Positions 3,632 through 59,512 of a DNA stretch of 64,000 nucleotides are shown here, piece after piece. This stretch comes from Streptomyces sp. NBC_00335. GTDB lineage: Bacteria > Actinomycetota > Actinomycetes > Streptomycetales > Streptomycetaceae. The stretch is from contig NZ_CP108006.1 in assembly GCF_036127095.1 (NCBI RefSeq), forward strand, positions 1,178,001-1,242,000. Reading direction: 5' to 3'. The number at the start of each line of letters is the position of its first letter. Position 1 is the stretch's first letter. Both the position numbers and the translations under genes were made by a program. Below the pieces are notes generated by a model that had not been told where the DNA came from, did not search any database, and worked only from the letters and a program-made list of their open reading frames with translations.

Positions 3632-4255
3632 TCAGGCCGCCGGCGGGCGCATGGTCTGGCGGAGCGTGGCCCCCGCGCCCAGTCCCGCGAGCCAGTCGTC
3701 CAGTTCGGCCAGGGCGGGCGGGCCCAGGAGGGCCGGGTCCACCGTGGTGCGGAGCTGGTGGGGCACCCCCGAGGCGAGCAGGAGGCGCAGGCTGCGCTCC
3801 GCCGAGGCGGCGGCGTGGCCGATGCCGGTGACCTTCTCGTACCGGCCGGGCGGAGCCTTGACGTCGAAGCCGACCCAGTCCAGCAGGCCGGCGTCCAGCA
3901 GCCGGGCCAGCCGCCGGGGGAAGGCTCCCCCGGTGTGCAGCCCGACCTCCAGGCCCAGCGCACGGGCCTCCCGCACGGCCTGCGGCAGGCCGCGCTGGAG
4001 CAGCGGTTCGCCGCCCGAGAAGACGATCCCGTCGAGCAGTCCCGTCCGGCGGGCGAGGTGGCCGAGCACCTCGTCCCAGGAGACGGCGGCGGGGGCCCGG
4101 GCGGGCAGCAGGCCCGGGTTGTGGCAGTAGCCGCACCGCCAGGGGCAGCCCTGGCAGAAGACGGTGGTGACCAGGCGGCCGGGCCAGTCGCAGGTGGACA
4201 GCCGGGACCAGCCGCCGATCCGGACGACCTCGCCGGGCGCCGCCGCGGCGGTCAC
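3632..4255 (-). CDS. nrdG: Anaerobic ribonucleoside-triphosphate reductase activating protein (radical SAM)
   Basis: NrdG is the radical-SAM activase that installs the glycyl radical on NrdD. The [4Fe-4S] motif CPWRCGYC (CxxxCxxC, C37/C41/C44) follows TTVFCQG, and the SAM-binding FSGGEP motif lies near residue 80. Length (207 aa) fits short NrdG/PflA-like activases. The GTG start overlaps the nrdD stop codon (GTGA at 4252-4255), so translation is coupled and the two proteins are likely made in fixed ratio. It shares the promoter, NrdR boxes and cobalamin riboswitch upstream of nrdD. Confidence 0.93.
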   Translation of the reverse strand: MTAAAAPGEVVRIGGWSRLSTCDWPGRLVTTVFCQGCPWRCGYCHNPGLLPARAPAAVSWDEVLGHLARRTGLLDGIVFSGGEPLLQRGLPQAVREARALGLEVGLHTGGAFPRRLARLLDAGLLDWVGFDVKAPPGRYEKVTGIGHAAASAERSLRLLLASGVPHQLRTTVDPALLGPPALAELDDWLAGLGAGATLRQTMRPPAA

Positions 4256-6030
4256 ACCGCGGCCTTGAAGTGGACGCGCTCGGCGTGTTCGCCCTTCTTG
4301 CCGATGTTGAAGGAGGACACCGGGCGGTGGTAGCCCATGACCCGGGTCCACACCTCGCACGCCGCCCCGCACGTGGGGCAGGTGGGCTGCTCCCCCGCCA
4401 GGTAGCCGTGGTCCGCGCAGATGGAGAAGGTCGGGGTCACCGTCAGGTACGGGAGCCGGAAGGTCTCCAGCGAGCGCCGGACCAGCTTGCGGCAGGCCTC
4501 CGCCGTCGGGATCCGCTCGGGGGTGTAGAGGTGCAGGACGGTGCCGCCCGTGTACTTGCCCTGCAGCTCGTCCTGGCGCTCCAGCGCCTCGAAGGGGTCG
4601 TCGGTCCATCCGACGGGCAGCTGGGAGGAGTTGGTGTAGTACGGGTTGGCGTCGGTGCCGGCCTGGAGGATGTCGGGGAAGCGGGCCCGGTCCTCCTTCG
4701 CGAAGCGGTACGTCGTGCCTTCGGCGGGGGTGGCCTCCAGGTTGTAGAGGTGGCCGGTGCTCTCCTGGAAGTCGGTCATCCGGGCCCGCACCCGGTCCAG
4801 GAGGCGGACCGCGAGGGCGTGCCCCTCGGGCGAGGTGATGTCGTGCGCGTCCCCGCTGAAGTTGCGGACCATCTCGTTGACGCCGTTGACGCCGATGGTG
4901 GAGAAGTGGTTGCGCAGGGTGCCCAAGTACCGCTTGGTGTACGGGAAGAGGCCGCCGTCGATCAGATCCTGGACGGTGACCCGCTTGAGTTCGAGGCTCT
5001 CCTTGGCCAGCTCGCACAGCCGGTCCACCTCGGCCAGCAGCCGCTCCTCGTCACCCGCGCAAAGGTGCCCGAGGCGGGCGCAGTTGAGGGTGACCACGCC
5101 GATCGATCCGGTCTGCTCGGCGCTGCCGAAGAGGCCGTTGCCGCGCTTGAGGAGCTCGGTCAGGTCGAGCTGGAGCCGGCAGCACATGGAGCGGATCATG
5201 TTCGGTTCGAGCTCGGAGTTGATGAAGTTCTGGAAGTACGGGAGGCCGTACTTGGCGGTCATCGCGAAGAGCCGCTCGGCGTTCTCGCCCTCCCAGGGGA
5301 AGTCCTTGGTGATGTTGTAGGTCGGGATGGGGAAGGTGAACACCCGCCCGGTGGCGTCGCCTTCCGCCATCACCTCGATGTACGCCCGGTTGATCATGTC
5401 CATCTCGGCCTGGAGTTCGCCGTAGGTGAAGCCGGCCTCCTCCCCCGCGATCACCGGGACCTGTTCGCGCAGGTCCTCGGGGCAGGTCCAGTCGAAGGTG
5501 AGGTTGGTGAAGGGGGTCTGGGTGCCCCAGCGCGAGGGCACGTTCAGGTTGTGCACGAGTTCCTGGACGCACTGCCTGACCTGGCCGTACGTCATCGCGT
5601 CGAGGCGGACGTAGGGCGCGAGGTACGTGTCGAAGGAGGAGAAGGCCTGGGCGCCCGCCCATTCGTTCTGCAGGGTGCCAAGGAAGTTCACGATCTGGCC
5701 GACGGCCGAGGAAAGGTGCCTGGGCGAGGCGGAGTCGATCTGTCCGGGGACTCCGCCCAGGCCCTCGGCCAGCAGGGTGCGCAGGGACCAGCCGGCGCAG
5801 TAGCCGGAGAGCATGTCCAGGTCGTGGATGTGGAGGTCGCCCTCGCGGTGGGCGCGGGCCACGGCGGCGGGATAGACCCGTTCCAGCCAGTAGTTCGCGG
5901 TGACCTTGCCCGCGGCGTTGAGGATGAGCCCGCCGAGCGAATAGCCCTGGTTGGCGTTGGCGTTCACCCGCCAGTCCCGGCGGTCCAGGTATTCGGTCAC
6001 GGTCTCTACGGCATCGACGGCAGCGGTCAC
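4252..6030 (-). CDS. nrdD: Anaerobic (class III) ribonucleoside-triphosphate reductase
   Basis: The enzyme reduces NTPs to dNTPs without oxygen or B12, using a glycyl radical. At 592 residues it is shorter than the E. coli enzyme because the N-terminal ATP-cone is absent: conserved core sequence (NANANQGYSLGGLIL) starts by residue 23. Visible active-site features are the C78 region (SGYCAGW), the CCR cysteines at 283-284, a zinc-site region C538-x2-H541 with CPTC (551-554), and the glycyl-radical loop RVMGYHRP with G566 followed by SFNIGKKGE. The GTG start has GGGAGGG 6 bp upstream. The leader carries a cobalamin riboswitch and the promoter carries tandem NrdR boxes. Confidence 0.95.
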   Translation of the reverse strand: MTAAVDAVETVTEYLDRRDWRVNANANQGYSLGGLILNAAGKVTANYWLERVYPAAVARAHREGDLHIHDLDMLSGYCAGWSLRTLLAEGLGGVPGQIDSASPRHLSSAVGQIVNFLGTLQNEWAGAQAFSSFDTYLAPYVRLDAMTYGQVRQCVQELVHNLNVPSRWGTQTPFTNLTFDWTCPEDLREQVPVIAGEEAGFTYGELQAEMDMINRAYIEVMAEGDATGRVFTFPIPTYNITKDFPWEGENAERLFAMTAKYGLPYFQNFINSELEPNMIRSMCCRLQLDLTELLKRGNGLFGSAEQTGSIGVVTLNCARLGHLCAGDEERLLAEVDRLCELAKESLELKRVTVQDLIDGGLFPYTKRYLGTLRNHFSTIGVNGVNEMVRNFSGDAHDITSPEGHALAVRLLDRVRARMTDFQESTGHLYNLEATPAEGTTYRFAKEDRARFPDILQAGTDANPYYTNSSQLPVGWTDDPFEALERQDELQGKYTGGTVLHLYTPERIPTAEACRKLVRRSLETFRLPYLTVTPTFSICADHGYLAGEQPTCPTCGAACEVWTRVMGYHRPVSSFNIGKKGEHAERVHFKAAV

Positions 6031-6050
6031 GGCAGCCCTCCCACGAGGCT

Positions 6051-6206
6051 CGGCACGGAAGAATGGCGGGCCCTCTTCGAAGGCCCGTGCCGGCAGGTGT
6101 CGGACTCGTCCGCCGTGGCGGACGTAACCGTTGCGGGGCAGTCCCGGATTCCCACCGGGTTCCCTGTTGCCTCGGTCGGGGCAAGGCCCCGCCGAACCGG
6201 CAAGGC
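6051..6206 (-). promoter_or_regulatory. Cobalamin riboswitch in the nrdDG leader
   Basis: Read on the minus strand, the leader contains the cobalamin-riboswitch core: GAGGCAACAGGGAA, then CCGGTGGGAATCCGG (a hairpin), then the near-invariant CCCCGCAACGGT (about 6125-6165), and a B12-box-like AGTCCGACACCTGCC near 6092-6106. Downstream, GGCACGG (6085-6091) can pair with CCGTGCC (6052-6058) just before the nrdD ribosome site, a plausible expression platform. Known precedent: the class Ia nrdABS operon of S. coelicolor is shut off by B12 through such an element. Here the same logic is inferred for class III nrdDG. Confidence 0.9.
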
Positions 6207-6258
6207 CAACACTACATATGGATGCGACAGCAGAGCGCCACCACTACATATGGGGTGA
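6206..6258 (-). promoter_or_regulatory. Tandem NrdR boxes upstream of nrdDG
   Basis: The sequence ACTACATATGG occurs at 6211-6221 and again at 6243-6253, exactly 32 bp apart, or about three helical turns. On the minus strand each reads CCATATGTAGT inside a 16-bp imperfect palindrome close to the NrdR consensus (acaCwAtATaTwGtgt). Paired boxes with this spacing are the classical arrangement for the ATP/dATP-sensing repressor NrdR. The boxes lie immediately upstream of the riboswitch, so nrdDG would respond to nucleotide status at initiation and to B12 in the leader. Confidence 0.82.
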
Positions 6259-58989: not shown

Positions 58990-59512
58990 GGCGAATTCCT
59001 CTCCGACGCCTGCGAGGTGAGCTGTCGGGTTCGGACTGGAGATGTCCGGCCGTACGTGCGCCGTTGAACAGCACATGGACGGCTTCACCCCGAGCTGTCC
59101 CGTTGTAAAGATCCCGAAGGAGCTCCGGAACAGCGGCTTACCTGGTTCCCCCGCTCCTGCCGCGCGCGTGAATAGTCGGGTGCGGTTTCCGGACGGCGGC
59201 AGGATTAGGCGGTCCATCCGGATCGATCGCGAAGGTAATCCAGCCCGGCGGCACGGAACAAGTCCCGAATTCCCCCATGGATTCCAAGTGATGATGGACC
59301 GACGGAATTACGGTCACCCTGCGTCCATTCCCCTCCCCCAACAACCGTCCGGACAGGGGAATTCGCCCTTCGCGATCAGGCACTCACGGTCACCGTATGA
59401 TCTGGCTCACGGGGACGTGTCCGATCTCGCCCCTCGCTATGGCAAGTTGTCAGCAACCAACGTAATTCGGACACGCGCGACGACGACCACACGGAGACAC
59501 GGAGGAGCCCCT
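58990..59512. other. Riboswitch and phosphatase promoter region (523 bp)
   Basis: The left half is the c-di-AMP riboswitch leader of the peptidase gene. The right half holds the promoter of the phosphatase, with TATGAT (59396-59401) as a possible -10 and a CGTGTCCGA/TCGGACACG inverted repeat (59418-59426/59467-59475) that may be an operator. No coding sequence is seen. Confidence 0.6.
59000..59210 (-). promoter_or_regulatory. c-di-AMP (ydaO/yuaA) riboswitch of the M23 peptidase
   Basis: Read on the minus strand: CCGTCCGGAAACCGCACCC, then GGCAGGAGCGGGGGAACCAG near 59140-59163, TCGGGGTGAAGCCG near 59077-59091, and CCGAACCCGACAGCTCACCT followed by CGCAGGCGTCGGAGAGG at 59000-59035. These blocks in this order match the ydaO leader of Streptomyces cell-wall hydrolase genes such as rpfA. 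It represses the downstream gene when c-di-AMP is high; the assignment rests on sequence pattern. Confidence 0.9.

Follow-up and report, generated by a model that had tools for sequence, protein, structure and literature searches.

The nrdDG locus and its leader

The window, by which we mean the whole stretch of 64,000 nucleotides analyzed here, corresponds to C1:1178001-1242000 of a genome that comprises two contigs and 9.0 Mb. It carries nrdD and nrdG, the genes of a class III ribonucleotide reductase and its activase, preceded by a leader in which NrdR box 1, NrdR box 2, a cobalamin aptamer, a hairpin containing the ribosome-binding site (RBS) and the start codon at 6030 follow one another toward nrdD. 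The features are listed below by their positions in the window.

3632..4255, minus strand: nrdG activase (TIGR02495, NrdG2, 198 bits; ORF 3632-5017; start placed by manual count)
4252..6030, minus strand: nrdD, class III reductase of 592 aa, GTG start, no ATP-cone (PF13597, E 2.3e-183; NF006126, 1046 bits)
6033..6051, minus strand: P13/L13-type hairpin GAGCC-UCGUGGGAG-GGCUG, 19 bases, containing the nrdD ribosome-binding site
6036..6042, minus strand: nrdD Shine-Dalgarno GGGAGGG, present in 8/9 aligned leaders and absent in the G080 remnant
6075..6216, minus strand: cobalamin riboswitch aptamer (RF00174, 62.7 bits; gathering score 31.5)
6133..6137, minus strand: L5 bases CCCGC, proposed partner of L13, read from the sequence and invariant in the aligned leaders
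6209..6214, minus strand: TAGTGT, putative -10 element inside box 2 (TAGTGT in 6/9 aligned leaders)
6209..6224, plus strand: NrdR box 2, ACACTACATATGGATG, 32 bp from box 1, overlapping the 5' flank of the riboswitch match
6241..6256, plus strand: NrdR box 1, CCACTACATATGGGGT, farther from nrdD, with a box at the same place in nine aligned leaders

The radical-SAM activase gene nrdG adjoins nrdD, as expected of a class III NrdDG system, and overlaps it by four bases, GTGA, by our count. Two C-terminal stretches of NrdD, RVMGYHRPVSSFNIGKK and CPTCG, align with the solved anaerobic reductases 4coi and 4u3e and correspond to the glycyl-radical and C-terminal cysteine stretches of this family. Among the matches listed, the closest named relative is the NrdD of Streptomyces xanthochromogenes (84% identity). 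A GH71-like glycosyl hydrolase gene (PF03659; 6321-8276, minus strand) lies directly upstream of the leader.

An N-terminal ATP-cone is present in most class III reductases, although it does not define them. PF03477 was absent from this NrdD even when the upstream open frame was added, and a cone hidden in that frame was therefore rejected. Since the enzyme lacks an ATP-cone, NrdR may be the sole dATP feedback, and thus the only dATP brake, on this NrdD.

A first-pass annotation had assigned the regulatory region to 6051-6258. The boxes and the aptamer fall within this span, but not the start codon or the hairpin at 6033-6051.

The NrdR box pair

The sequence ACTACATATGG was found exactly at 6211-6221 and at 6243-6253. 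The start-to-start distance is 32 bp, precisely as the first-pass annotation had stated, and corresponds to 16-bp boxes with 16 bp between them. When two mismatches are allowed, 1.7 chance matches of ACTACATATGG are expected per window, and 51 of 100 shuffles give two or more. Since chance alone would give such single matches, what counts as evidence is that both copies are exact and how far apart they lie.

Across the 9.0 Mb of the genome, the exact core ACTACATAT has two copies, each of them in the nrdD leader. A looser form of the pair, AYATGT-N26-AYATGT, was matched at two loci genome-wide, the nrdD and nrdA leaders, and the reversed control at none. The NrdR motif scan used the consensus acaCwAtATaTwGtgt, all but the last letter of which is given in the part consulted of PMC4009431. 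The pair before nrdD scored 17.5/22, the top of the 32-bp pairs in the window, where the runner-up scored 12.5. None of 200 shuffles of the leader, which keep its base composition only, reached this score. Chance occurrence of the boxes was rejected on these grounds.

According to the excerpts consulted of PMC12051234, NrdR binds best when whole helical turns separate its boxes, spacers of 15-16 bp form the commonest class of NrdR box pair, S. coelicolor included, and NrdR binds with dATP and ATP together and not with ATP alone. The boxes before nrdD resemble the consensus and lie an integral number of helical turns apart.

Such boxes before nrdD are not a novelty. NrdR-like pairs were surveyed in 46 nrdD upstream regions, drawn from the best 80 named loci, with 60 composition shuffles each, and in 41 of the 46 the pair beat all shuffles. 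The other five were L046 (equalled by 1/60), L043 (9), L033 (24), L061 (46) and L036 (48). We therefore rejected the idea that NrdR boxes are peculiar to the nrdD locus of the window.

The promoter scan of the nrdD leader found no sigma-70 consensus promoter. It is possible that the TAGTGT within box 2 serves as a -10 element, in which case the transcript would start at the foot of the aptamer.

The cobalamin riboswitch and the RBS hairpin

The cobalamin riboswitch claimed before nrdD was borne out by an Rfam scan that had been named beforehand as its test (RF00174, E 3.8e-13). In the genome as a whole, RF00174 matched at eight places, seven of them above the cut-off. One lies before a gene that appears, from its translation, to be metE-like (L002 1501-1896); it has an L13-type hairpin with a GTG at once after it, possibly the start of a short upstream frame of the kind that has been reported for mycobacteria.

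The hairpin loop of the nrdD leader, GUGGG, is complementary to the L5 bases CCCGC, a match that is partly expected from any Shine-Dalgarno sequence (GGG). The hairpin stands directly before the start codon in the nrdD leaders of Streptomyces and Kineosporia, except in the G080 remnant. A similar hairpin was found in the nrdD leaders L029, L036 and L038, at distances of 92-258 nt from where the gene probably starts (an earlier ATG in L038 would reduce this to 20 nt), and 130 nt from the likely start in the metE-like leader of the same genome. In the nrdA leader of this genome, unlike in the nrdD leader, 117 nt separate the end of the L13-type hairpin from the likely start, and the hairpin contains no RBS. 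None of these other hairpins is at ribosome-binding distance from the likely start.

The pairing of the hairpin was evaluated in hand-chosen rows, 11 aligned of 14 leaders viewed. L093 and L097 (near copies) and L032 (loop one base shorter) were left out of the alignment, and L043, L046, L059 and L090 stand outside this count. In the ten distinct rows, 90% of the cells were paired and both-side changes occurred at two of the four pairs, compared with 57.5% paired at most when the partners were slid by up to three columns. Shuffles reached the paired percentage in 4/500 cases and the number of both-side pairs in 31/500, the latter being a weak control. The stem is short, and its outer pair fails in four of the ten distinct rows. 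Plain RNA folding with P1 formed or blocked gave no consistent difference in RBS accessibility, in a kind of folding that cannot represent a kissing contact; the forced state excludes Kineosporia, and the G080 remnant is outside the folded set.

In corrinoid riboswitches such as E. coli btuB and env8, an L5-L13 kissing loop stabilizes P13 and with it the RBS hairpin, as described in the part consulted of PMC10653944; that contact is experimental and concerns other genes, whereas the one in the nrdD leader is proposed from complementarity. The B12 switches of M. tuberculosis are translational OFF switches with a likely L13, according to the excerpts consulted of PMC11260477. These precedents favor a translational shut-off by B12 for nrdD. 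Since the loop of the RBS hairpin complements L5, translation is most likely blocked by B12, in addition to a repression of transcription by NrdR.

It is also conceivable, although we consider it somewhat unlikely, that the riboswitch acts on transcription and not on the RBS, terminating it early or through Rho; an action on transcription is what has been reported for Streptomyces nrdABS. The title of the 2006 report by Borovok names transcription, and in Propionibacterium acnes much of the nrdAB transcription apparently stops short of the first gene (PMC3848588, part consulted). A GC-rich hairpin, GGGCCUUCGAAGAGGGCCC, is found downstream of the aptamer and upstream of the RBS hairpin. It is, however, absent in G082 and G320, which retain the RBS hairpin, and the RBS itself is located inside this conserved hairpin. 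The terminator scan found no terminator-like site with a T run, although Rho-dependent ends would escape such a scan.

Other ribonucleotide reductases of the genome

The presence of class Ia genes had been named as a further point to check, and nrdA was found at C1:2850461 (PF02867; TIGR02506, 741 bits). Its leader has the same layout as that of nrdD: a box pair with a score of 15.0 and a spacing of 32 bp, followed by RF00174 just upstream of the gene (43.6 bits). An open frame of 341 residues after nrdA looks like nrdB. The genes nrdR (TIGR00244, 153.7 bits) and nrdJ (NF005122, 1620 bits) adjoin each other and have a box pair with a score of 15.5 and a spacing of 31. No RF00174 match was found before nrdRJ in L010, which covers about 340 bases upstream of nrdR. 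The leader scans of nrdD, nrdA and nrdRJ thus place NrdR-like pairs before all three reductase classes; within the sequence scanned, a riboswitch precedes only the two B12-independent ones.

The class II enzyme NrdJ works with B12 whether oxygen is present or absent. Since NrdJ would serve with or without oxygen as long as B12 is available, NrdDG would be useful only when both are lacking.

Distribution and loss of nrdD in Streptomyces

A search of 392 genus genomes with the NrdD query (E 1e-3) matched eight. Full-length nrdD is present in five of the 392, namely the genome studied here, three with 93-95% identity and one with 85%, and remnants are present in G080 and G320. The eighth, G319, was set aside as an nrdD holder, its match being weak (27%) and containing a stop. 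RF00174 and the box pair precede nrdD in 8/8 Streptomyces loci examined (the five full-length genes, S. xanthochromogenes L011 and the two remnants). The spacing of the pair is 32 bp in these loci and 33 in the G080 remnant. The nrdD leader of Kineosporia babensis (L015) has the same layout of box pair and RF00174.

When the leader DNA was searched across the genus, 387 of 392 genomes matched. The match spans the full 233 bases in the genome studied here, G256, G277, G320 and G082, and about 86 bases in G283 and G080. The remaining matches listed, G279, G232 and G336 among them, cover roughly 40-100 bases of the aptamer; a second match in the genome studied here falls inside the riboswitch before the metE-like gene.

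In G320 (L097), the leader and about 29 nrdD codons are followed by a jump from window position 5947 to 2223. Missing are the remainder of nrdD, together with nrdG and almost an entire LysR gene; the boxes, the aptamer (61.5 bits) and the RBS hairpin are retained (L097 1261-1740). Some 190 bp separate the end of the hairpin from the probable start of a class-V aminotransferase gene, which has possibly captured the NrdR-B12 switch. In G080 (L096 1231-1900), a piece of nrdD is fused to a piece of nrdG, and the aptamer is kept above the Rfam cut-off (57.4 bits). These losses are consistent with an enzyme of narrow use. The rare retention of nrdD, with a switch that outlives the gene in two genomes, was the less expected finding.

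The scarcity of nrdD in the genus, with full-length genes in so few genomes and remnants in two more, might suggest that the leader is a decaying relic and that nrdDG is unused. We regard this as very unlikely, since both nrdD and nrdG are open with strong family matches, and the box pair, the aptamer and the RBS hairpin are conserved as far as Kineosporia.

Riboswitch-bearing nrdD beyond the genus and the link to NrdJ

Among the best 80 named nrdD loci, RF00174 was found above the Rfam gathering score on the same strand upstream of nrdD in ten: L011, L015, L029, L032, L036, L038, L043, L046, L059 and L090. Since these are the best 80 matches and seven of them have less than 900 bases upstream, the riboswitch counts are not population figures. 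In Actinotalea fermentans (L012 2216-2358, minus strand), which has NrdJ, a cobalamin riboswitch lies near nrdD on the opposite strand.

The presence of NrdJ was compared in 45 of the best 80, a hand-picked sample of 33 largely actinobacterial genomes, four further riboswitch-bearing ones and eight others. NrdJ exceeded the TIGR02504 cut-off in 8/10 genomes with a riboswitch before nrdD and in 8/35 without. The association gave a Fisher p of 0.002, uncorrected for relatedness, or 0.003 when L067 is counted. L067 (407 bits) is a possible ninth NrdJ without riboswitch; it spans TIGR02504 as class I enzymes do, and the NrdA of the genome studied here scores 384 on the same model. The two riboswitch genomes without NrdJ, L032 and L038, are metagenome assemblies, and L041, counted as having NrdJ and no riboswitch, has only about 330 bases upstream. 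The coexistence of riboswitch and NrdJ fits the role of a B12-free standby for nrdDG.

A tree was built from 51 NrdD proteins, of which 46 came from the best 80 named loci and five from the genus. In it, those of Streptomyces and Kineosporia, all riboswitch-bearing, group together with a support of 94/91, slightly short of the value that the program counts as strong. The riboswitch label requires six changes on the tree, and at least five of these changes are forced by well-supported branches. Among the proteins scanned with Pfam, the ATP-cone is kept in the riboswitch-bearing L029, L038 and L043 and is absent in S. xanthochromogenes, Kineosporia and the NrdD of the window. Since L017 and L041, which have no riboswitch match, also lack the cone, its loss is not tied to the riboswitch.

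A probable two-input leader and its relation to known systems

The boxes, the aptamer, the hairpin, their conservation and the set of reductase genes are established for the nrdD leader. From them we infer NrdR binding, the promoter position, the switching and the physiology. We consider it probable that the nrdD leader takes two inputs to control a standby class III reductase, NrdR acting on transcription and B12 on translation. First, NrdR would repress nrdD transcription through the box pair, the transcript starting where the aptamer begins or close to that point. Second, bound B12 would favor the L5-L13 kissing contact, which would stabilize the hairpin that hides the RBS and so lower translation. 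With these two inputs, production of NrdDG would be confined to conditions in which both dNTPs and B12 are scarce and NrdJ is unable to work, and the enzyme would act only without oxygen.

The closest precedent is P. acnes. According to the parts consulted of PMC3848588, its nrdDG combines a cobalamin riboswitch, which is annotated, with an nrd-box pair, which is predicted; nrdAB also has a riboswitch, and nrdRJ has a box pair without riboswitch. As there, both elements precede nrdDG here in a genome bearing NrdJ. P. acnes differs in that its nrdAB has a single box and its active nrdDG promoter is located far upstream of the boxes, whereas the boxes of the present leader lie upstream of and against the aptamer. 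The same paper speculates that a second promoter bypasses the aptamer, so that NrdR derepression would escape B12 control; since a promoter under boxes upstream of the aptamer would transcribe the aptamer, such an escape is highly improbable here.

B12 elements before nrdDG of delta-proteobacteria were reported in 2004 (PMC545781). They occur in NrdJ genomes and follow the same B12-saving logic; the hosts, however, are unrelated, and the parts consulted of that paper mention no NrdR boxes. A riboswitch before nrdD is also reported for Chlorobium in the part consulted of PMC8620254. Among the open-access papers listed, with subscription journals mostly outside, no title or abstract opening described a Streptomyces nrdDG under dual control.

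The principle of an NrdR pair and a riboswitch before nrdDG is thus already published, and the nrdD leader is a new example. The interpretation given in the first-pass annotation stands as regards the dual architecture, the presence of nrdA and nrdJ and the standby role with which the NrdJ coexistence agrees; novelty, on the other hand, is not supported, given the P. acnes precedent (PMC3848588, part consulted).

With this leader, an oxygen-sensitive enzyme of a supposedly aerobic genus would be controlled by a compact two-input switch that lends itself to testing. Within one genome, three reductase classes can be compared under a single regulator. The rarity of nrdD, together with the two deletion remnants, makes it possible to ask under which conditions it pays to keep an anaerobic reductase that needs no B12.

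Streptomyces is commonly regarded as aerobic. Borovok and co-workers are reported to have described in 2006 an S. coelicolor nrdABS leader with NrdR boxes and a B12 riboswitch. The nrdA leader of the present genome, with its 32-bp pair followed by RF00174, resembles that arrangement; the S. coelicolor enzyme, unlike NrdDG, is of class Ia.

A wider scenario can be imagined, which we hold to be unlikely. B12 gating of nrdDG would have arisen several times, mostly in lineages owning NrdJ, and would have hidden nrdDG from selection. In Streptomyces, nrdDG would then be rarely kept and internally deleted while the switch survives, perhaps captured by the G320 aminotransferase, with all dATP feedback passing through NrdR.

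Elsewhere in the window, a c-di-AMP riboswitch (RF00379, 62.7 bits) was found at 58992-59188 on the minus strand.
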